DNA of 64,000 bases from Arcobacter sp. LA11 (GTDB taxonomy: Bacteria; Campylobacterota; Campylobacteria; Campylobacterales; Arcobacteraceae). The position numbers and the translations under genes are program-made. The stretch is taken from NCBI RefSeq assembly GCF_001895145.1, contig NZ_BDIR01000006.1, positions 62,001 to 126,000 of the forward strand, read 5' to 3'. This document shows, piece after piece, positions 4,383 through 38,740 of this stretch (position 1 is its first letter; the number at the start of each line of letters is the position of its first letter). The notes below the pieces were generated by a model, which was not told the origin of the DNA, ran no database searches, and worked only from the letters and a program-made list of their open reading frames with translations.

Positions 4383-4536
4383 CTGTTTTCCTTTTAGTTA
4401 TATAAAAATTGTATAATTCTTATATATTAATTTCATTTTTTAAGATGGAAGTTTATTCCAATTAAATTAAAAACAAAATTAAACGATGAACTATTATTCA
4501 TCTAGGATATTGATAGTTAAAAAAATAATATAAATA

Positions 4537-5349
4537 TTAAATACTCTTAACTTCAATTTTGTAACCATCTGGATCAATTAAAGTTTTTTCTTCATTTGAA
4601 AAAACAGTAAGACTTTTAAAACCAGTTGAAATACCTGTTTCATATTTAAAATTTTCATCTAAATCAAAAACATATTGTAATTCAATCATAGTAAAATCTC
4701 TTTTCCAAAGCCATTGTCTATTTTCAATATCTTCTACATCTTCATTTGGAAGTTTTTCTTTTGTAAATCCTAAAAAATATAAATCAAAACCTCTTTTCTC
4801 AAGATTCATTTTAGATAGAAGTTTCATATTTAAATCTTTTTCATAAAAATTCAAACTCTTTTCAATATCTTTTATTCTATATGTAATAAGGGAAAAAATA
4901 GCTCTATTTCCTAAAACATAATTCGAATCTTCTTTTTGTTTTTTATGGTTTTGCTCAAATTCATGTTGTATAAACTCCAACCCATAACCATCTGGGTCAA
5001 AAAAATGACAAAGGTTTGCCACATTAGGTACTTGAAAAGCTTCAGTTACTTCAATACCTTTCTCAATTAGTTTTTGCCTTGCAATATCTACGTCTTTTAT
5101 ACTAATTGCCATCTTCCAATATCCAGTAAGCCTATTGTCATCTTTTGGATAAACTATTTGCGTATTATTTTTATCGCGAATTAACTCTAAAATTGCCTCA
5201 TTGGTATCAAGATTAAATTTCAGTTGATAAAATTCCTTTTCATCTTCTAGAAACTGATTAACAAGTTTCATCCCAAGTTTATTTATATAAAAATCTAAAC
5301 TATTTTTTGTATTTGAAATATATATAGAGTGTTTTTCTAGATATTGCAT
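4537..5349 (-). CDS. Two-domain VOC (glyoxalase-like) protein
   Basis: 270 residues made of two vicinal-oxygen-chelate modules. Module one starts HSIYISNTKNSLDFYINKLG and ends FFDPDGYGLEFIQ; module two (about 148-270) repeats this with IKDIEKSLNFYEKDLNMKLL and LIDPDGYKIEV. Candidate metal ligands are His7, the Glu of GLEFI and the Glu of IEVKS. VOC enzymes include lactoylglutathione lyase and dioxygenases; the second module's SLNFYEKDLNMKLLSKM and WLWKRDFTMIELQY resemble glyoxalase I. It is the last gene of a yjbQ-SnoaL-VOC operon, eight bases after its neighbour. Specific reaction unknown. Confidence 0.8.
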   Translation of the reverse strand: MQYLEKHSIYISNTKNSLDFYINKLGMKLVNQFLEDEKEFYQLKFNLDTNEAILELIRDKNNTQIVYPKDDNRLTGYWKMAISIKDVDIARQKLIEKGIEVTEAFQVPNVANLCHFFDPDGYGLEFIQHEFEQNHKKQKEDSNYVLGNRAIFSLITYRIKDIEKSLNFYEKDLNMKLLSKMNLEKRGFDLYFLGFTKEKLPNEDVEDIENRQWLWKRDFTMIELQYVFDLDENFKYETGISTGFKSLTVFSNEEKTLIDPDGYKIEVKSI

Positions 5350-29368: not shown

Positions 29369-29426
29369 TTGTCAAGAAAATGTCAAAAAATATATCATAC
29401 TAAAATTGACATTATATTGATATATT
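29369..29426 (+). promoter_or_regulatory. Response-regulator-type promoter, copy 1
   Basis: TTGTCAAGAAAATGTCAA (29369-29386): TGTCAA repeated with an 11-base period, the direct-repeat layout of OmpR/PhoB-class boxes. A TTGACA (29406-29411), the inverted form of TGTCAA, begins exactly 37 bases after the box start, and TATATT at 29421-29426 is a -10 candidate. The same three elements at the same spacings recur at 30554 and 38378. Confidence 0.7.
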
Positions 29427-29432
29427 TATAGA

Positions 29433-29663
29433 TTGAAAGAATTTGTTATGAAATTTACCATTAAGATAGTTCTTTGAAAGTTAATTTCTATAATTGTAAT
29501 TTTTTTATTTCCTTAAGTATTCTAACTTTTAGTGCTTAAGAAACTGTATATATATTTAAAATGAATCATATAGGATTAATAAACTATTTAAAAGTTTAAA
29601 TAGTTCAAGCAAAAGTAAGAATTTAGAACCCTTCATTATTTTCAAGTTAACTTGAATTTTTTT
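29433..29663 (+). ncRNA. Candidate short RNA or leader before the response regulator
   Basis: Starting near the predicted start site of promoter copy 1, the region carries only a nine-codon ORF (ATG 29448, stop 29475), then an 11-bp hairpin AACTATTTAAA-AG-TTTAAATAGTT (29582-29605) and a terminator-like TTCAAG-TTAA-CTTGAA followed by seven T (29641-29663). The stop-rich sequence after the ATG may instead be a dead gene. Speculative. Confidence 0.35.
29641..29663 (+). terminator. Terminator-like hairpin upstream of the response regulator
   Basis: TTCAAG-TTAA-CTTGAA with a 4-base loop followed by a T tract. It lies between promoter copy 1 and the response-regulator TTG at 29698, so it could terminate a short RNA or act as attenuator. 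Confidence 0.5.
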
Positions 29664-29697
29664 GTTTAAAGAGAGTTTCGAAAAAGAGGTAGAATAA

Positions 29698-30402
29698 TTG
29701 AATATAAAAAATGTACTTTTGATAGAAGATAATTTAGAACTTCAAACACTTATAAGTAATTTTCTAAAATCCTATGACTACGTTTGTAAAGTATATTCAG
29801 AACCAGTAGAAGCATTAAAAGATTTTGAAGAAAATCATTTCAAGTATGCTATTGTCATTTTAGATTTGGGTCTTCCAAAAATGGATGGATTTGATCTTTT
29901 TAAAAAATTAAAAGAAGTTAGAGATATACCAATAATAATATCAACAGCAAGGGATGATATTGGTAATAAAATCTATGGGTTTGAGTTAGGTGCTGCTGAC
30001 TATCTATCAAAACCTTATGAGCCAAGAGAATTGGTGTTAAGAATTGATGCAATATTAAAACGATATGAAAATGACAAAGAAAAAATATATAAAAATAACA
30101 AAGAACTTAAAATTGCCGATTTAATAATAGACATGCGTAAAAATAAGGTATTTTTGGAAAATCAAGAAATAGAATTTACCAAAATTGAATCAGAAATATT
30201 TTTTATGTTTATCTCTAATATTAATAAAGTAGTTTCTAGAGAAGATATTGTCAATCAAACCTCTTTAAAAAAAGATACTAAAAATAGAACTATAGACACA
30301 CATATTAGTAATATACGGTATAAAATAAATGATGACCCTAAAAATCCCACATATATTAAATCAGCATGGGGAATAGGATACAAGTTTATCAATAAAAACT
30401 AA
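29698..30402 (+). CDS. OmpR-type response regulator (orphan)
   Basis: 234 residues. Receiver domain with phosphoacceptor Asp56 in VILDLGLPKMDG, the acidic pair in LIEDN, and Lys in LSKPYEPRE; winged-helix DNA-binding C-terminus with REDIVNQTS.. and the recognition region RTIDTHISNIRYKIND. The start is TTG 29698 with AGAGGTAG upstream. No histidine kinase is next to it, so its partner is elsewhere or lost. It lies between two copies of a promoter whose repeats match the 11-base layout expected for its class, so it is the obvious candidate to bind them and regulate the Mrp operon. Confidence 0.9.
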   Translation: MNIKNVLLIEDNLELQTLISNFLKSYDYVCKVYSEPVEALKDFEENHFKYAIVILDLGLPKMDGFDLFKKLKEVRDIPIIISTARDDIGNKIYGFELGAADYLSKPYEPRELVLRIDAILKRYENDKEKIYKNNKELKIADLIIDMRKNKVFLENQEIEFTKIESEIFFMFISNINKVVSREDIVNQTSLKKDTKNRTIDTHISNIRYKINDDPKNPTYIKSAWGIGYKFINKN

Positions 30403-30553
30403 GTACTCATTTCACTTATTTTATCACTTTTAATATTTATTATAAGAGTCTTTTTTTACAATTTATAATTTAAATACAATCTATTCACCTTAACACTGTA
30501 AATGTTATCTAATATAAACCTTTTAGAAGTAAGTTTTTCCATTAAATTAAAAA

Positions 30554-30611
30554 TTGTCAAGAAAATGTTAATGAATATACCATATTAAAATTGACACTAT
30601 CTTGATATATT
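30554..30611 (+). promoter_or_regulatory. Response-regulator-type promoter, copy 2 (mrp)
   Basis: TTGTCAAGAAAATGTTAA (30554-30571), TTGACA (30591-30596, 37 bases from the first box) and TATATT (30606-30611). Sequence between the boxes is also largely conserved with copy 1. Directly upstream of a 25-residue ORF and the mrp operon. Confidence 0.7.
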
Positions 30612-30645
30612 TACAACTCTAAAAGTCAGTTTTAAAGGATTAATT

Positions 30646-30723
30646 ATGGGAATTGTTATAAAGATGGCTATCTTAGTAGTATCTAGTTTTGTATTAATAG
30701 GGCTTATTAGTCATTTTGCCTAG
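30646..30723 (+). CDS. 25-residue membrane peptide at head of mrp operon
   Basis: ATG 30646 with an AAAGGA site 6 bases upstream; MGIVIKMAILVVSSFVLIGL then ISHFA, one transmembrane helix. It is the first ORF after promoter copy 2 and before mrpE. Could be a small membrane protein or a leader peptide. No family known. Confidence 0.45.
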   Translation: MGIVIKMAILVVSSFVLIGLISHFA

Positions 30724-30764
30724 TGTAAAAAATATAGCAATATAATTCTAATCAGAAGATATAA

Positions 30765-30790
30765 AGTTAAGATTTAAAAAAGTCTTAACT
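30765..30790 (+). other. Stem-loop in mrp leader
   Basis: AGTTAAGA / TCTTAACT, 8 bp with a 10-base loop between the small ORF and mrpE. No T tract. Possible RNA processing site or weak attenuator. Confidence 0.35.
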
Positions 30791-30879
30791 AATTATAACA
30801 AAAAAACAAACAGGCTTTTTATGCCCATAAAACGTTCAAATATTGTAAAAAATTTAATATTGAGGAGTAAAAAATTATA

Positions 30880-31362
30880 ATGACAACTAGGTATTATTTT
30901 ATTTTAGCTTTTGTCCTTGCCCTATTTTGGTTTTTATTATCCGGCCACACCAGTATATTATTGCTGACTCTTGGTCTTGCATCTATAATTCTGGTTACAT
31001 GGTTAGTTAGTCGTATGGATCGCAACGATAATGCTCCAATTCGTATGTTATTTTCTATAGAATTTCTTTCTTATCTTGCTTGGCTTGTTTGGCAAGTTCT
31101 TCTTACTAACATTGATGTTGCACGTCGTATTTGGAAAACATCATTGCCAATTAAACCCACATGTCGTAAGATTAAAGTAAGTGTCAAAAATCCACTAATC
31201 AAAACCATTTATGCAAATTCAATAACATTGACACCAGGTACAGTAACTACTGAGGTAGGTGAAGATTACTTTATTGTACATGCACTAAATGTTGAAGGTC
31301 TAGATGAATTGGAAGAAGGTGAAATGGAAAGACGTCTTATTCGTCTGGAGGAAAAACAATGA
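30880..31362 (+). CDS. mrpE: Mrp antiporter subunit E
   Basis: 160 residues: two N-terminal helices then a cytoplasmic domain, with RRIWKTSLPIKPTCRKIKVS and TLTPGTVTTEVGEDYFIVHALN, the MrpE signature. Part of a multi-subunit Na+ (or K+)/H+ antiporter complex. GAGGAG at 30862-30867 is the ribosome site, somewhat far (12 bases). Start of an operon whose genes overlap by four bases throughout. Arginine is mostly CGT here, unlike the AGA-rich neighbours. Confidence 0.92.
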   Translation: MTTRYYFILAFVLALFWFLLSGHTSILLLTLGLASIILVTWLVSRMDRNDNAPIRMLFSIEFLSYLAWLVWQVLLTNIDVARRIWKTSLPIKPTCRKIKVSVKNPLIKTIYANSITLTPGTVTTEVGEDYFIVHALNVEGLDELEEGEMERRLIRLEEKQ

Positions 31363-31625
31363 TTGCTGCTGCTATAGTTGCCTTGCTAATTACACTAGCA
31401 TTGACATTAGTTCGTGCCTTTCTAGGCCCAAGTATTTATGACAGAATACTTGCCGTTAACTCTTTTGGTACTAAAACAGTTTTATTAATTGTTGTTGGTG
31501 GACATGCACTAGGTTGGTTTAGTTATATAGATATTGCATTAATGTATGCGTTAATTAACTTTGTTGGAACTCTAGCTGTAATGCGTTTTTTTGAACAATA
31601 TAATCCACAAGGAGAACAGTCATGA
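31359..31625 (+). CDS. mrpF: Mrp antiporter subunit F
   Basis: 88 residues, three helices with LVRAFLGPSIYDRILAVNSFGTK, the MrpF core. Its ATG overlaps the mrpE stop (ATGA), and its stop overlaps mrpG similarly, so it is translationally coupled. Confidence 0.92.
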   Translation: MIAAAIVALLITLALTLVRAFLGPSIYDRILAVNSFGTKTVLLIVVGGHALGWFSYIDIALMYALINFVGTLAVMRFFEQYNPQGEQS

Positions 31626-31984
31626 CAATTATTAGCTTATTAAGTGATATTTGTTTACTTCTTGGAGGTATTTTTACTATAACTGGTGCAGTAGGTTTAT
31701 TACGTCTACCTAGTTTTTATACTAGATTACATGCAGCTAGTGTTACAGAATCACTAGCTGCCCCATTATTAATTGTCGGGATTATGTTAGATACTGGATT
31801 TACACTAGATGCTGCTAAATTAGTCCTTATAATTGTTATCATGGTAGTTTCTAACCCAACTATTACTCATGCTTTATGTCGTGCTGCTGTCCATGGTGGT
31901 ACAACACCTGAGATGGAAACTAAAAACACTAATAAAGAACAATCGCAAACTGAAACAGAGCTTTCAGGTAAGGAGTCAAAGTGA
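31622..31984 (+). CDS. mrpG: Mrp antiporter subunit G
   Basis: 120 residues: three helices (GGIFTITGAVGLLRLPSFYTRLHAAS is the MrpG signature) then a hydrophilic Thr/Glu/Lys tail. Coupled to mrpF by ATGA and to the next gene by GTGA overlap. Confidence 0.92.
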   Translation: MTIISLLSDICLLLGGIFTITGAVGLLRLPSFYTRLHAASVTESLAAPLLIVGIMLDTGFTLDAAKLVLIIVIMVVSNPTITHALCRAAVHGGTTPEMETKNTNKEQSQTETELSGKESK

Positions 31985-32952
31985 TAGAGAATCTTCACTT
32001 ACTAATTGATGTTTGTTTGCTAGCTTTTCTAATACTAATTGTTTTTGCAACTATGAAAATAACCAATTTATTCGTTGCTACTATGCTATTTGGTATTTTT
32101 AGTTTTGTTACGGCCTTATTATTTCTAGACCTAGACGCAGTAGATGTTGCTTTTACTGAGGCTGCAGTTGGTGCTGGATTTTCAACAGTACTGATGTTAT
32201 CAGCTTTAAAACTTACTGGTGCAGTAGAAAATGCTAAACACCGTCATTCAGCATTGGGATTATTTATTGTAGTACTTACTGGTGCTGCTTTAATCTATGG
32301 TACAGCAGACTTTCCAATTATGGGAGATGCTAATGCTCCAGTACATCTACATGTTGCTCCTGAATTTATTCAGTTGACACAAGAAAAAATTGATATTCCC
32401 AATGTAGTAACTGCTGTACTGGCAAGTTTTCGTGGTTATGACACTTTTGGTGAAACAGTGGTTATATTCAGTGCAGGTGTTGCAGTATTACTTCTACTTG
32501 GAATGGGACATGTGGAACCTAAACAAGAACCAGAACAAAACATGGTTTTATGGGTAGTTGTTAAACCTTTTATAGCACTAATTTTAATTTTTGGACTTTA
32601 TGTACAATTTCATGGTGATTTTGGCGCAGGAGGTGGTTTTCAAGCAGGGGTAGTTTTCGCTAGTGGCTTTATTTTGTATAGCCTAGTTTTTGGAGAAGCT
32701 TATGCAAGGAAAGTTATTCCAGCTAGGGTTTTACCTAGATTTTCTGCACTAGGTGTATTAATTTATGGTATAACGGGGCTTGTAAGTCTTCTATCAAATA
32801 AGCCTTTTCTTGACTATAATGCATTATCTTCTAATCCTATAAGTGGTCAACATATGGGTATATTACTGGTTGAAGCTGGCGTTGGGTTGGCAGTATTTTC
32901 TACAGTATTACTAATCTTTTATTCTTTTTCTGGAGTGAATCATAATGAATGA
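31981..32952 (+). CDS. Mrp subunit: MrpA C-terminal domain fused to MrpB
   Basis: 323 residues. The N-terminal part is the MrpA C-terminal (DUF4040) domain with FGIFSFVTALLFLDLDAVDVAFTEAAVGAG; the C-terminal part is MrpB-like with FHGDFGAGGGFQAGVVFASGF. In canonical Mrp systems these domains sit in a large MrpA and a separate MrpB; here they form one protein and no full-length MrpA is present. Start is GTG 31981 overlapping the mrpG stop. Confidence 0.88.
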   Translation: MIENLHLLIDVCLLAFLILIVFATMKITNLFVATMLFGIFSFVTALLFLDLDAVDVAFTEAAVGAGFSTVLMLSALKLTGAVENAKHRHSALGLFIVVLTGAALIYGTADFPIMGDANAPVHLHVAPEFIQLTQEKIDIPNVVTAVLASFRGYDTFGETVVIFSAGVAVLLLLGMGHVEPKQEPEQNMVLWVVVKPFIALILIFGLYVQFHGDFGAGGGFQAGVVFASGFILYSLVFGEAYARKVIPARVLPRFSALGVLIYGITGLVSLLSNKPFLDYNALSSNPISGQHMGILLVEAGVGLAVFSTVLLIFYSFSGVNHNE

Positions 32953-33331
32953 GTTATTAGGACATTTTAATTACTGGATAGTAATTTTTCTAATGATGAT
33001 GGGATTATATATGGTAATTGCATCATCTAATTTAATTAAAAAATTGATTGGTCTTTCTGTCTTTCAAGCATCGGTATTTATATTATATATTACTTTTGGA
33101 AAGATAACGGAAGGTAGTCCACCTATAATCACCGACAATGTTGATATTTATTCTAACCCTTTACCTCATGTACTTATTCTAACAGCTATTGTAGTTGGTG
33201 TTGCAACAACATCTGTTGGATTAGCATTAATTGTACGTATTCAAGAAGCTTATGGTAGTACAGATGAAGATGATATACATGATATGGATGATAATGATGA
33301 TTTTAACCCTAAAAACAGGAGTATAACTTGA
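32945..33331 (+). CDS. mrpC: Mrp antiporter subunit C
   Basis: 128 residues, NuoK-like: three helices with NLIKKLIGLSVFQASVFILYI, followed by LPHVLILTAIVVGVATTSVGLALIVRIQE and an acidic tail (STDEDDIHDMDDNDDF). Starts within the end of the preceding gene. Confidence 0.92.
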   Translation: MNELLGHFNYWIVIFLMMMGLYMVIASSNLIKKLIGLSVFQASVFILYITFGKITEGSPPIITDNVDIYSNPLPHVLILTAIVVGVATTSVGLALIVRIQEAYGSTDEDDIHDMDDNDDFNPKNRSIT

Positions 33332-34809
33332 ATCAAATGACACATTTACCTGTTCTTATTGTTGTAACACCATTACTAGCAGCAGCACTAATTGTATTAC
33401 TTAATAGTAGAAAAGGCGCTTGGTTAATCACCTTATTGACATCACTTTTTTGTTTTTATGCTTCAATCAGTATGTTACAAATGTTGCAAGAAGTTGATGT
33501 ACTAATTTACACGCTTGGTGGTTGGCAAGCACCCCTTGGAATTGAACTTCGTATTGATGCACTAAGTGTCTTACTTTTATTAATTTTATCTGGTTCAGCT
33601 TCACTAGTCAGTATATATGCACTAAAAAGTGTTGAAAAAGAGATTGCAGAAGGAAAACAAGTTCTATTCTATTCAGCCTTTTTATTAGTTATGGCAGGAC
33701 TTATTGGTATTAGTATTACTGGCGATGCATTTAATGTTTTCGTCTTTTTAGAGATATCTTCTCTTTCTACCTATGCAATAATAAGTATGGGGAAAGATCG
33801 TCGTGCTCTGCATGCTTCATACCAATACCTTATCATGGGGACAATTGGTGCAACCTTTATTCTAATTGGTATTGCCTTTTTATATGTAATGACAGGGACA
33901 CTAAATATGAATGATCTAGCACAACGTATACCAGCAGTTGCTGATACTAGTGCTATACGTGCTGCTTTTGCCTTTATTACAATTGGTGTAGGTATTAAAG
34001 CAGCAATGTTACCTTTACACCAATGGTTGCCAAATGCTTATGCTTATAGTCCATCTGTAGTTTCAACTTTCCTTGCGGCAACAGCAACTAAAGTTGCAGT
34101 TTATGTAATGATCCGTTTTGAATTAACTATATTTGGTATAGAGTTTTCACTTCTTGAAATGCCATTTGATAAAATATTAATGATACTTGGTACATTGGGT
34201 ATTTTAGGTGGTTCTATTTATGCTATTTACCAAAGCAATGTTAAACGTATGCTAGCATATTCTAGTATTGCTCAAATTGGTTATATGTTATTGGCTATAG
34301 GTCTTGCAAGTCACCCAGGTTTTACTGCTGCATTGTTACATATGTTCAACCATGCCTTAATAAAAGGAAGCTTATTTATGGCACTTGGAATTGTGTTCTT
34401 CCGATATGCTAGTACAGAGTTATCTGTAATGTCAGGTATTGGTAAGACTATGCCCTTAACTATGGCTGCCTTTACTATAGGTGGTTTAAGCTTAATAGGT
34501 GTACCAGGAACTGCTGGGTTTGTAAGCAAATGGTACCTTGTAACTGCTTTACTTGATGCTTCATTATGGCCAATAGCACTATTAATACTTGTAGCTTCTG
34601 TATTGACACTGATTTATGTAGGTCGAGTTATAGAAGTTGCTTATTTCAGACCTGCGCCAGAGGGAACTACTCAGAAAAAAGTACCAGCAACGATGATAGT
34701 CACTTTATGGATATTTGCTCTAAGCAATATTTATTTTGGTTTAAACATTGATATCAGTTTAGGTATATCATCTCTTGCAGTAGATCAGATAATAGGGGTT
34801 AGACCATGA
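33328..34809 (+). CDS. mrpD: Mrp antiporter subunit D (ND-type), copy 1
   Basis: 493 residues, about 14 transmembrane helices, a homolog of complex I NuoN/NuoM antiporter-like subunits. Key region: VFVFLEISSLSTYAIISMGKD with the glutamate-bearing TM5 and GVGIKAAMLPLHQWLPNAYAYSPS with the lysine TM7 motif. TTG start at 33328 (TTGA overlap with mrpC stop); an ATG nine bases downstream is an alternative. One of three ND-type subunits in this operon. Confidence 0.9.
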   Translation: MNQMTHLPVLIVVTPLLAAALIVLLNSRKGAWLITLLTSLFCFYASISMLQMLQEVDVLIYTLGGWQAPLGIELRIDALSVLLLLILSGSASLVSIYALKSVEKEIAEGKQVLFYSAFLLVMAGLIGISITGDAFNVFVFLEISSLSTYAIISMGKDRRALHASYQYLIMGTIGATFILIGIAFLYVMTGTLNMNDLAQRIPAVADTSAIRAAFAFITIGVGIKAAMLPLHQWLPNAYAYSPSVVSTFLAATATKVAVYVMIRFELTIFGIEFSLLEMPFDKILMILGTLGILGGSIYAIYQSNVKRMLAYSSIAQIGYMLLAIGLASHPGFTAALLHMFNHALIKGSLFMALGIVFFRYASTELSVMSGIGKTMPLTMAAFTIGGLSLIGVPGTAGFVSKWYLVTALLDASLWPIALLILVASVLTLIYVGRVIEVAYFRPAPEGTTQKKVPATMIVTLWIFALSNIYFGLNIDISLGISSLAVDQIIGVRP

Positions 34810-36266
34810 GTATTGAAGTACTTTATATTTTAATATTACTTATACCGTTGCTTACTGCTGTTGGTGTATTAGTATGTCATAAAAACGAAAATATCCGTGA
34901 ATCTGTAACACTTATAGGTGGTGTATCTTTATTTTTAGTTGTTGTTACACTGGCATTTAACTATGACTTTGAAAAAATGGTAACTGTGACATTATTAGAA
35001 CCGTTTCCTGATTTGTCAATTGCATTACGCCTTGAACCATTAGGACTGATATTTGCATTAGTAGCAGGATTTTTATGGCCTGTTACATCTTTATATGCAA
35101 TTGGTTATATGCGTTCACATCATGAAAAAAACCAAACACGTTTTTATACTGCATTTGCCATCTCTATTTTTGCTACAATGGCAATAGCTTTATCAGCTAA
35201 CTTATTAACACTATTTTTAGCTTACGAAATGTTAACACTTTTTACTCTACCATTAGTTACTCATGCAGGAACCGACGCAGCACGTCGTGCAGGTTGGACC
35301 TATTTAGGTATCCTAATGACAACGTCAATTGGATTTTTGCTATTAGCAATTATCTGGACATGGTCATTAACAGGTACACTAGAATTTACTGCAGGAGGAA
35401 TTCTTGCTGGAAAAGCTGAACCTGCTATCTTAGGTGGATTATTATTACTATTTGTTTTTGGTACAGGGAAAGCGGCATTAATGCCATTTCACAAATGGCT
35501 ACCAGCAGCAATGGTAGCACCAACACCTGTTTCTTCTTTACTACACGCAGTTGCGGTGGTAAAAGCTGGTGTTTTCACTATTTTAAAAGTTGCAGTTTAT
35601 ATTTTTGGAATTGACTTAGTTGCTTCACTTGACACTGCTTATTGGCTCTCGTTATTAGCTGGATTTACTATTCTTAGTGCTTCAATTATAGCAATGACAA
35701 AAGACAATCTAAAAGCAAGGTTAGCTTATTCAACAATTAGTCAGTTATCATACATTATTTTAGCTGCTATGTTAGGTGTTGCTACTGGTGTATTAGCAGG
35801 TAGTTTACATATTGCTATGCATGCATTTGCAAAGATTACTCTATTCTTCTGTGCGGGTGCAATCTTAGTTAGTGCTCATAAAACTAAAGTTTCTGAATTA
35901 AATGGTATAGGACGAGCAATGCCAATTACAATGCTAGCATTTTTACTAGCAGCACTTTCAATTGTTGGTTTACCACCTCTTGGAGGAAGTTGGAGTAAAT
36001 GGTTATTGCTACAAGCAACTATGGAAGCACACAATATGGTATTACTAATGGTGTTATTAGTAAGTTCCTTATTAAATTTATTCTATTTAGTAGAAATACC
36101 ATTAAGAGGTTTTTTTGCAAAACCCGTTGATCCAAGTTATAACAGCGGGATCAAAGAAGCACCAAAATTTAGTTTAATTGCAATTTTAATTACAACAACG
36201 GGCTGCCTAGCACTATTTTTCTTGGTTAACCCAGCTTGGAATCTTGTGGAGAAAATATTACCATGA
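34806..36266 (+). CDS. Mrp ND-type antiporter subunit, copy 2
   Basis: 486 residues with the ND family helices: LFLAYEMLTLFTLPLVTHAG (TM5 glutamate) and GTGKAALMPFHKWLPAAMVAPTPVSSLLHAVAVVKAGVF (TM7-8 lysines). Coupled to copy 1 by ATGA and to the next small gene by ATGA. A second proton-channel-like subunit. Confidence 0.9.
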   Translation: MSIEVLYILILLIPLLTAVGVLVCHKNENIRESVTLIGGVSLFLVVVTLAFNYDFEKMVTVTLLEPFPDLSIALRLEPLGLIFALVAGFLWPVTSLYAIGYMRSHHEKNQTRFYTAFAISIFATMAIALSANLLTLFLAYEMLTLFTLPLVTHAGTDAARRAGWTYLGILMTTSIGFLLLAIIWTWSLTGTLEFTAGGILAGKAEPAILGGLLLLFVFGTGKAALMPFHKWLPAAMVAPTPVSSLLHAVAVVKAGVFTILKVAVYIFGIDLVASLDTAYWLSLLAGFTILSASIIAMTKDNLKARLAYSTISQLSYIILAAMLGVATGVLAGSLHIAMHAFAKITLFFCAGAILVSAHKTKVSELNGIGRAMPITMLAFLLAALSIVGLPPLGGSWSKWLLLQATMEAHNMVLLMVLLVSSLLNLFYLVEIPLRGFFAKPVDPSYNSGIKEAPKFSLIAILITTTGCLALFFLVNPAWNLVEKILP

Positions 36267-36601
36267 ATGATAATAAACAATACATATTTGACAACCCTAA
36301 AAATGTAACACTACTAGTAAGAGCACTTTATACTTGTTGTTTTATTCTGTTTGCTATGGATTTAGTTATACATCGACATATTTACCATCCATGGGAAGAA
36401 TTTATAGGTTTTTATGCCTTTTATGGTTGTCTTGCGTGTGTGGTATTAGTACTATTAGCGCGTGAAATGAGAAAACTTGTTATGCGTGATGAAGACTATT
36501 ATGATACTAAAAACGATACAACAAAAGTTGAAAATAATAACCATGACATTGAAAAAAATAAAGAAGAAAAATTAATGACAGGAGAAAAAGTTGATGGATA
36601 G
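36263..36601 (+). CDS. Small two-helix membrane protein of the mrp operon
   Basis: 112 residues from ATG 36263, which overlaps the preceding stop (CCATGA) and has GGAGAAAA upstream; a longer frame from 36236 adds residues inside the previous gene and is unlikely. Two membrane helices (about 19-39 and 50-71), HRHIYHPWEEFIGFYAFYGC between them, and a hydrophilic tail. Not a named Mrp subunit; likely an extra accessory subunit. Confidence 0.7.
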   Translation: MNDNKQYIFDNPKNVTLLVRALYTCCFILFAMDLVIHRHIYHPWEEFIGFYAFYGCLACVVLVLLAREMRKLVMRDEDYYDTKNDTTKVENNNHDIEKNKEEKLMTGEKVDG

Positions 36602-38288
36602 TTTCTTACCAATATTACCATTTTTTATTGCAGCAATTCTAACACTTTTTACTCGTGGAAGCTTGCGTGCTACTATTATGATAGTAACGCCAATTATTGC
36701 GGCTTATGGTATCTACAATCTTGAAGTTGGTCATACATTTAATTTTACACTAATGGGATTTGAACTAGAACCAATAAGAATAGATAAGCTTTCAATGCTA
36801 TTTGGTTATTTATTTTGTGTTGCTGGATTATTAGGTAATATCTATGCTTTATATCATAAAGACACAATGCAACACTTTGCAGCGCAAGCCTATGCCGGTA
36901 GTGCTATAGGTGCTGTTTTTGCTGGAGATATGCTTACTTTATTTATTTACTGGGAGTTAATGGCTTTAACATCATCAGTATTGATTTTTGCTAGAAGAAC
37001 TGATGCCTCACTTCATGCTGGTATTAGATATTTAGCAATACAGATTATATCTGGTTTATTATTACTAGCAGGTATTATCGTTTATTACAACTCAATTGGA
37101 AACTTAAACTTTAATCATATCGGATTAGATGCTCCAGGTGCTTGGTTATTCTTCTTAGCATTTGGTATTAAAAGTGCCTTCCCATTCTTACATAACTGGT
37201 TAACTGATGCTTATCCAGAAGCAACTGAGAGTGGTACAGTATTTTTAAGTTCATTTACAACAAAAGTTGCGGTTTATGCATTAGCAAGATCTTTTGCAGG
37301 TGAAGAAATTCTTATTTACATTGGTGCAACAATGGCCTTCTTCCCAATTTACTATGCAGTAATTGAAAATGACTTAAGAAGAGTATTAACATACAGTCTT
37401 ATCAACCAGATTGGATTTATGGTAGTTGGTGTTGGTATTGGTACAGAGTTAGCCCTAAATGGTGCAGTAGCCCATGCATTTGCAGATGTAATCTTTAAAG
37501 GATTATTGATGATGACGATGGGAGCAGTACTATGGTCAACTGGAGAAATGCGTGGTTCGGAACTTGGAGGTTTATATAAGAAAATGCCAAAAACAACTTG
37601 GCTTTGTATTATAGGAGCTGCTTCAATTTCTGCATTCCCACTATTTAGTGGATTTGTAACTAAGTCTATTATTGTTAGTGCGGTATTAGCAGAAGGTTAT
37701 TATGGAGTTTGGTTAATTTTACTATTTGCTGCAGCTGGAGTATTTCACCATGCTGGTATTAAAATTCCATTCTTCGCATTCTTTGCACACGATTCAAAAT
37801 TTATTGATACAGCAAAAGAGGCTCCCAAAAATATGCTATGGGCGATGAGTCTAAGTGCAGTACTTTGTATTGCTATTGGTTGTTTCCCTCAAACTTTCTA
37901 CTCTTTATTACCTTGGGAAATGGACTATACAGTATATGATACAACACATGTATTAACTCAATTACAATTACTGTTCTTCTCAGCACTTGCATTTGTTTGG
38001 TTGAAATTAGCTCATATTTATCCACCTGAACTTAAATCAGTAAATATTGATGCAGAATGGATATATCGTAAATTATTCCCAAAAGCAATTTATCAAACAA
38101 GTAGTGTTTTTGGTGCATACTATACTAAAATTGAGTGTAAAGTTGAACAATTACTAAATTCGTCTAAATCATCTACTAACAAATTTGTTGGTGCAGATGG
38201 CTTCTTGTCTAACTTTCGATCTCTTGGTGGAATGGTGATGTGGGTTGCAGTGATATTATCTACATCATTGTTTTTATATTATATATAA
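36594..38288 (+). CDS. Mrp ND-type antiporter subunit, copy 3
   Basis: 564 residues from ATG 36594 (a TTG three bases earlier is possible; AGGAGAAAAAG precedes). ND-type helices with LFIYWELMALTSSVLIFARR (TM5 glutamate) and FGIKSAFPFLHNWLTDAYPEA (TM7 lysine), then NDLRRVLTYSLINQIGFM. Contains many AGA codons, unlike the first mrp genes. This third large subunit takes the place of a full MrpA. Ends at a terminator. Confidence 0.88.
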   Translation: MDSFLPILPFFIAAILTLFTRGSLRATIMIVTPIIAAYGIYNLEVGHTFNFTLMGFELEPIRIDKLSMLFGYLFCVAGLLGNIYALYHKDTMQHFAAQAYAGSAIGAVFAGDMLTLFIYWELMALTSSVLIFARRTDASLHAGIRYLAIQIISGLLLLAGIIVYYNSIGNLNFNHIGLDAPGAWLFFLAFGIKSAFPFLHNWLTDAYPEATESGTVFLSSFTTKVAVYALARSFAGEEILIYIGATMAFFPIYYAVIENDLRRVLTYSLINQIGFMVVGVGIGTELALNGAVAHAFADVIFKGLLMMTMGAVLWSTGEMRGSELGGLYKKMPKTTWLCIIGAASISAFPLFSGFVTKSIIVSAVLAEGYYGVWLILLFAAAGVFHHAGIKIPFFAFFAHDSKFIDTAKEAPKNMLWAMSLSAVLCIAIGCFPQTFYSLLPWEMDYTVYDTTHVLTQLQLLFFSALAFVWLKLAHIYPPELKSVNIDAEWIYRKLFPKAIYQTSSVFGAYYTKIECKVEQLLNSSKSSTNKFVGADGFLSNFRSLGGMVMWVAVILSTSLFLYYI

Positions 38289-38308
38289 TATTCACAAAAG
38301 TATACATG

Positions 38309-38345
38309 GGATTATAATTCTATATTAGAGTTATAATCCTTCTTA
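38309..38345 (+). terminator. Terminator of the mrp operon
   Basis: 13-base arms GGATTATAATTCT and AGAGTTATAATCC (one G-U pair) with a 5-base loop, then TTCTT. Confidence 0.75.
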
Positions 38346-38377
38346 TAATTAAAAAACCTCTATTTAAAGAGTTTAAT

Positions 38378-38435
38378 TTGTCAAGAGAATGTTAAGAAAA
38401 ACTACCTTGTAAACTTGACAAAATATAATTATAAT
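38378..38435 (+). promoter_or_regulatory. Response-regulator-type promoter, copy 3
   Basis: TTGTCAAGAGAATGTTAA (38378-38395), CTTGACAA around TTGACA (38415-38420) at the same 37-base offset, and TATAAT (38430-38435) at the same offset from TTGACA as in copies 1 and 2. Lies downstream of the mrp operon. Confidence 0.7.
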
Positions 38436-38441
38436 TACACT

Positions 38442-38520
38442 CTTAATAAAGTGTTTCTTAGTACGAAATAGTAAAAATTTGACTAAAACTGATTTTGTTT
38501 ATTTTGTACTAGGAATTTTT
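38442..38520 (+). ncRNA. Candidate short RNA with terminator hairpin
   Basis: About ten bases after copy 3's TATAAT comes a long stem CTTAGTACGAAATA / TATTTTGTACTAGG (38457-38470 and 38500-38513, with G-U pairs) then AATTTTT. This fits a short terminated transcript of some 75-80 bases or an attenuator. No ORF inside. Hypothesis only. Confidence 0.4.
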
Positions 38521-38647: not shown

Positions 38648-38740
38648 ACAATTATATCAACAACTTTTGCAAGGACTTTAACTATAATTGCAGTAAAAAT
38701 ATTCAAAAAGAAAGAGAAAATTGAGCAATACTCAGACTAA
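38648..38740 (+). pseudogene. Remnant of an EamA transporter 3' end
   Basis: The frame at 38648 reads TIISTTFARTLTIIAVKIF and a basic tail ending in TAA at 38738-38740. Compare the EamA gene's last residues, GTILTIIAVKIL: the DNA is also close (TTTAACTATAATTGCAGTAA present in both). Further upstream, AATAGCAATTTTGTTCTATA near 38536 matches the araC promoter region near 27500. Suggests a decayed copy of the araC-eamA segment. Confidence 0.5.

Follow-up and report, generated by a model that had tools for sequence, protein, structure and literature searches.

A predicted Na+/H+ homeostasis regulon in Arcobacteraceae, with candidate microproteins and a putative nhaD-directed small RNA

Three promoters of the same layout surround a response-regulator (RR) gene and an mrp (multisubunit cation/proton antiporter) operon in the 64,000-nt stretch of the marine bacterium Arcobacter sp. 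LA11 analysed here (the ‘window’, to which all coordinates refer; the host genome is 3.1 Mb), and the question that they raise is which protein reads them and what they control. We propose that these ‘boxes’ act as operators and promoters for a single small two-component regulon of Na+/H+ homeostasis in Arcobacteraceae, which would include microproteins as well as a small RNA (sRNA) directed at nhaD; to this reading, drawn from comparison of sequences, we would assign a probability of about 0.75.

The boxes and their probable regulator

Read directly, the three boxes match TTGTCAAGnnAATGTnAA at 29369, 30554 and 38378 (reading TTGTCAAGAAAATGTCAA, TTGTCAAGAAAATGTTAA and TTGTCAAGAGAATGTTAA, respectively), with TTGACA starting 37 bases after the box start in each (29406, 30591 and 38415) and a -10 hexamer starting a further 15 bases on (TATATT at 29421 and 30606; TATAAT at 38430). 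This confirms the original prediction of three promoters that share one architecture and one set of spacings, and they are the only zero-mismatch matches in the window. Site 1 (29369..29426, plus strand; tandem TGTCAA repeat 29370-29386, TTGACA 29406-29411, -10 29421-29426) sits upstream of the RR gene; site 2 (30554..30611, plus strand; tandem repeat, TTGACA 30591-30596, -10 30606-30611) and site 3 (38378..38435, plus strand; tandem repeat, TTGACA 38415-38420, -10 38430-38435) follow in the same order of elements.

A pattern search of the whole genome, run with a reversed-pattern control, recovered the full spaced pattern TGTMAA-N5-TGTNAA-N19-TTKRCA-N9-TA exactly five times (control, 0), well beyond what chance would give. 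Three of these matches are the window sites and two lie on contig C8 near a paralogous RR/kinase pair, some 1.7 and 2 kb downstream of where the RR paralogue ends, with the histidine kinase gene between. This search had been fixed beforehand as a test of the prediction, and it found no scatter unlinked to the regulator: all five boxes are near the RR gene or its closest paralogue, which supports the proposed compact regulon. The 17-mer core alone, TGTCAAGNNAATGTNAA, has four exact matches genome-wide. The fourth (C5:363981) was considered as an nhaD operator and set aside, as it points away from nhaD and has no TTGACA/-10 layout; it is probably a coincidence. This match, TGTCAAGAAAATGTCAA, sits between nadB and nhaD, in a partial and now degraded copy of the 3' end of nadB (L031 5880-6010).

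The candidate reader of the boxes is the RR itself (29698..30402, plus strand), a PhoB/OmpR-family protein composed of a receiver (PF00072) followed by a winged-helix domain (PF00486, Trans_reg_C), both above gathering cut-offs; it has no adjacent kinase gene, reaches no equivalog cut-off among the NCBIfam models, and has its closest paralogue in the genome on C8 (68% identity). Taking a close relative to be a match with E below about 1e-88, 29 of 104 Arcobacteraceae genomes carry one; 27 of the 29 also contain exact boxes, whereas the 75 genomes lacking such a relative contain none (Fisher p 6e-23, to be taken only as a guide, since related genomes are not independent); the remaining two RR-bearing genomes have boxes with one mismatch. 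Across 399 genomes of the order, a stricter form of the pattern is confined to Arcobacteraceae. The proposed tie between the box and this RR family is therefore borne out by co-occurrence across the family; together with a recognition helix, NRTIDxHISNIRYKI, that hardly changes between the window RR and a paralogue of 59% identity, it suggests that the RR binds the boxes.

The boxes described here come close to the Pho box core, with tandem TGTCA-like half-sites of about 11-bp period upstream of promoters (TGTCAA-N5-TGTnAA in 60 boxes from 29 genomes) and the same receiver and Trans_reg_C domains in the regulator, but differ from Pho box systems in an additional inverted TTGACA at a fixed distance within the spacer, and in a predicted target set of Na+/H+ antiporters, microproteins and an sRNA. 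Near more distant RR/kinase paralogues, at L083:3417 and L084:4901, a tandem TGTCAA repeat precedes small genes without any TTGACA element (the small gene at L083 resembles a haem protein); since the distant paralogues keep only the repeat, it is probably the part that the RR reads.

Alignment of the 60 boxes gives the consensus TGTCAAGAAA-n-TGTCAAG ... TTGACA-N9-TATAAT, with 51 bases from the repeat start to the first base of the -10, such that a transcription start 7 nt behind the -10 would place the repeat at about -63 to -47. TTGACA itself does not serve as the -35: only 9 bp separate it from TATAwT, too few for it to act as the -35 of that hexamer, and it sits instead in the spacer. Pairing TTGACA with a -10 across a 17-bp spacer was also tried; the -10 so obtained is poor at sites 2 and 3, and the TATAwT at offset 15 is preferred. 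The latter lies 28-59 nt from the ATG of the first open reading frame (ORF) in the 60 boxes, with one exception, a consistency to be expected were it the true promoter element. At site 3 a -35-like TTGTAA (38407) stands 17 bp upstream of TATAAT, with TTGACA inside the spacer.

This layout bears on the direction of control. That the RR represses its box promoters is an unlikely reading, albeit one with some appeal, as the spacer holds part of the box and the sequence TTGACA-N5-TTGATA of sites 1 and 2, a second repeat in inverted orientation (on the minus strand, TGTCAA-type halves at an 11-bp interval), runs into the -10. The fourth half-site is missing, however, from most of the 60 boxes, and the tandem repeat lies directly upstream of the -35 region, which is a usual position for activators of the PhoB/OmpR family. 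The -35 hexamers are poor, which suggests dependence on an activator, and box position and weak -35 together favour activation over repression.

Antiporter genes, the kinase and microproteins behind the boxes

Of the 60 boxes, 20 stand before nhaA (NhaA identified by TIGR00773) and 28 before microprotein ORFs. In most RR-bearing relatives the genes form a cluster, nhaA-RR-kinase, with one box before nhaA and a second beside the kinase gene, and the anticipated link to Na+/H+ antiporters is thus supported in relatives. In the host genome the RR is detached from both nhaA and the kinase, and the window carries the mrp operon (30880..38288, plus strand), which runs from an MrpE-like through to an MrpA/D-like gene. 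The placement of the boxes given in the original prediction stands in part: one does precede the RR gene, making autoregulation possible, whilst site 2 heads a microprotein gene first and only then mrpE, and site 3 does more than merely follow mrp. In a further genome, G060, a gene that looks like a di-haem cytochrome c peroxidase lies behind a tandem repeat with one mismatch (L067:1049) and may also belong to the regulon.

The one close kinase in the genome is that on C8. Its best match is the ArsS family (NF038389), at 173.8 bits against a cut-off of 250, and we have therefore not filed it as ArsS; it resembles the ArsRS system of Campylobacterota in this match, but in relatives the kinase is genetically linked to nhaA.

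Microprotein A (MGIVIKMAILVVSSFVLIGLISHFA; 30646..30723, plus strand), the gene behind site 2, is predicted to encode 25 amino acids with one hydrophobic span behind the Shine-Dalgarno sequence AAAGGA; it is unannotated, is absent from the 70-aa ORF list, and is the first gene before mrpE both here and in genome G066. ORFs of 25-27 aa with the same features (Shine-Dalgarno, one hydrophobic span) follow the second box of relatives, reading roughly MxFLRNLIILVxVSFxxIGFISxSF; they are found behind boxes in most RR-bearing genomes, mostly adjoining the kinase gene. We regard it as highly improbable that these are untranslated, chance frames in AT-rich leaders. No Pfam or NCBIfam model matches them, and two copies in the host genome are frameshifted, as unneeded sequence might be; against this, length, Shine-Dalgarno, position and protein motif are conserved across several genera, and synonymous changes are in excess, at synonymous to non-synonymous ratios of 7:1, 2:0 and 5:3 in close pairs and 21:13 when the pair from the window and G066 is included (p 2e-5 against an assumed 27%).

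The first of the frameshifted copies lies between site 1 and the RR gene (approximately 29448..29542, plus strand), where a 9-codon ORF, MKFTIKIVL, is followed by a remnant resembling IIVIFFITLGTLAFA of G066, which has an intact 24-aa ORF at the same place. The second is one of two box-driven microprotein genes on C8 (L032, about 4500-4675, minus strand); its reading frame shifts within eight consecutive Ts, which may reflect a pseudogene, an error of assembly or a site of slippage. Divergent from site 1 in G066 (L066 5520-5861, minus strand) is another microprotein of 29 aa, MAIIDIVLFVFIGLVFVGTLIGFYIYNFK, standing behind a partial box of one TGTCAA, TTGACA and TATAAT.

What these proteins do may be judged from their company. 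A small membrane protein, MgrB, gives feedback on the kinase PhoQ (PMC2789325), and the conserved ORFs likewise predict a tiny single-span membrane protein whose promoter is of the type used by the regulator itself, and in many cases the gene adjoins that of the kinase; the likeness is one of build and gene setting, and the predicted proteins are shorter (25-27 aa versus 47). The frequent place beside the kinase favours a role in restraining it, and the place before mrp in the host genome favours support of an antiporter, so that either kinase feedback or an accessory role to the antiporters would be consistent with the arrangement.

A conserved RNA behind site 3 and its match to nhaD

Behind site 3 there is no listed gene start for some 280 bases, the next being an amino-acid permease gene at 38721, and upstream of it a terminator-like hairpin (38308..38340, plus strand), between mrp and site 3, closes the mrp operon. 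We predict that site 3 instead drives an sRNA (38441..38520, plus strand) with a 5' ‘seed’, TCTTAATAAAGTG (38441-38453), followed by a long hairpin (38457-38513) and a T-run. Seed and hairpin are conserved in genomes G066, G067, G068 and G060, and G061 has an altered version, making six species with the window, amid differing gene neighbourhoods. Five species share the first 13 bases without change, and the rest drifts; of the 16 pairs of the hairpin, four show compensatory changes, and 95% of cells pair, a share that drops to 31-44% on sliding. As the seed begins 5-6 nt (in G061, 8 nt) downstream of the -10 hexamer, it would form the very 5' end of the expected transcript, and the site-3 box and -10, the compensatory pairs and the T-run of the window together have the make-up of a short conserved RNA with its own promoter and a terminator-like hairpin. 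Rfam holds no match, even at E up to 1, and a covariance-model search outside the genus, under strict filters, found no such RNA.

A simpler account would see only three OmpR/PhoB operator copies serving an autoregulated mrp regulon, with neither microprotein nor sRNA, the third copy being a leftover or a promoter for the permease. It shares the link between box and regulator with our own proposal, and we consider it very unlikely, given the distance from site 3 to the permease, the hairpin RNA that recurs in six species with varied neighbourhoods, and the box-linked relatives of the site-2 ORF in most RR-bearing genomes. Site 3 as promoter of the permease was rejected on the same grounds, as the conserved RNA intervenes.

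A stretch of 12-13 nt at the 5' end of the predicted sRNA complements the nhaD ribosome-binding region (NhaD identified by NF038006; on contig C5 in the host genome) in all six species. When the exact complement CACTTTATTAAG was sought in the five genomes with the invariant seed, the sole non-self site common to all five was this region, where the target CACTTTATTAAGGAG lies shortly before the ATG, overlapping the nadB 3' end. The nhaD site of G061 is TCATTTTATTAAGGAG and its sRNA carries CTTAATAAAATGA, so that 13 nt are again perfectly complementary, a substitution in one RNA being mirrored in the other; by duplex energy, this sRNA favours the nhaD leader of G061 itself. Predicted duplexes of -15.8 to -24.7 kcal/mol are better than those with all 131 background gene starts in each genome. 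As expected of an antisense sRNA, complementarity is conserved in six of six species, with covariation as a single event.

Several observations pull the other way. Covariation amounts to a single change in one species, G061, whose RNA also has a weak promoter (two mismatches). The nhaD site is at the same time nadB coding sequence, such that its own conservation has another cause, and the argument comes to rest on the match of the RNA and on the one covarying base. The duplex in the window genome is the weakest of the six (-15.8 versus -15.2 kcal/mol for the best background start), about 10 nt separate the seed site of G066 from the functional Shine-Dalgarno downstream of it, and two genomes with boxes, G062 and G063, have no detectable sRNA; candidates in the latter pair, sought by their nhaD ribosome-binding sequence CATTTCATTAAG, were dismissed as 12-mer matches away from any box and apparently coding.

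It might also be argued that the site-3 RNA is the 5' leader or attenuator of a second microprotein (type B, MSIVDIVLFGFIGVVLIVSLVGFFIYNSK type, 29 aa, with a Shine-Dalgarno), degraded in some species, with the nhaD match being coincidental. Such an ORF does follow the hairpin in G067 and G068, and in truncated form in G060. The window, G066 and G061 are without it, however, yet keep both hairpin and 5' end, and with no intact type-B ORF in four of six species the RNA itself appears to be the conserved element. A leader would also leave unexplained why an antiporter ribosome-binding site is the only shared non-self match, and the matched base change in G061; we judge this account improbable.

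Amongst known trans-acting sRNAs of Campylobacterota, the closest in kind is RepG of Helicobacter pylori (PMC8295292). Both are trans-encoded, with (here predicted) pairing to the leader region of one target mRNA; the site-3 RNA differs in its place under an RR box, in its predicted target, nhaD, and in its seed, a single-stranded 5' end, as well as in being absent from Rfam.

A proposed model for the regulon

Synthesising the above, we suggest that a PhoB/OmpR-type regulator (the RR and its paralogue) binds TGTCAA half-sites that repeat in tandem at an 11-bp interval, some 55 bp ahead of the transcription start, together with the inverted TTGACA/TTTRCA element of the spacer. This regulator would, in most relatives, drive nhaA-RR-kinase and, from the second box beside the kinase, a microprotein of 25-27 aa. 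In the host genome, the signal (Na+ or pH) would most likely reach the orphan RR by cross-talk from the C8 kinase, whereupon the phosphorylated RR would activate its own gene, the microprotein-mrp operon, the C8 microproteins and the sRNA. We further propose that the sRNA, through its 5' end, masks the nhaD Shine-Dalgarno and blocks translation, lowering NhaD, so that one signal would exchange NhaD for Mrp/NhaA; the microprotein, meanwhile, may restrain the kinase (as MgrB does PhoQ) or support an antiporter. That one signal should at once raise NhaA/Mrp transcription, silence NhaD through an sRNA under the same operator, and engage microproteins to tune the kinase or antiporters seems to us somewhat better than an even proposition.

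The literature consulted (open-licence only, such that an earlier description is possible) yielded no Arcobacter nhaA/RR system, nhaD sRNA or RR-controlled mrp operon.

Taken as a whole, the analysis defines from sequence a regulon (operator, regulator and targets) for Na+/H+ homeostasis in marine Arcobacteraceae, holding a microprotein family without a Pfam or NCBIfam match and a candidate trans-acting sRNA with a named target. The regulator and target of this sRNA are predicted precisely enough for tests by a few point mutants, and the place of the microprotein beside the kinase makes feedback by tiny membrane proteins in two-component systems directly testable outside the enterobacteria.

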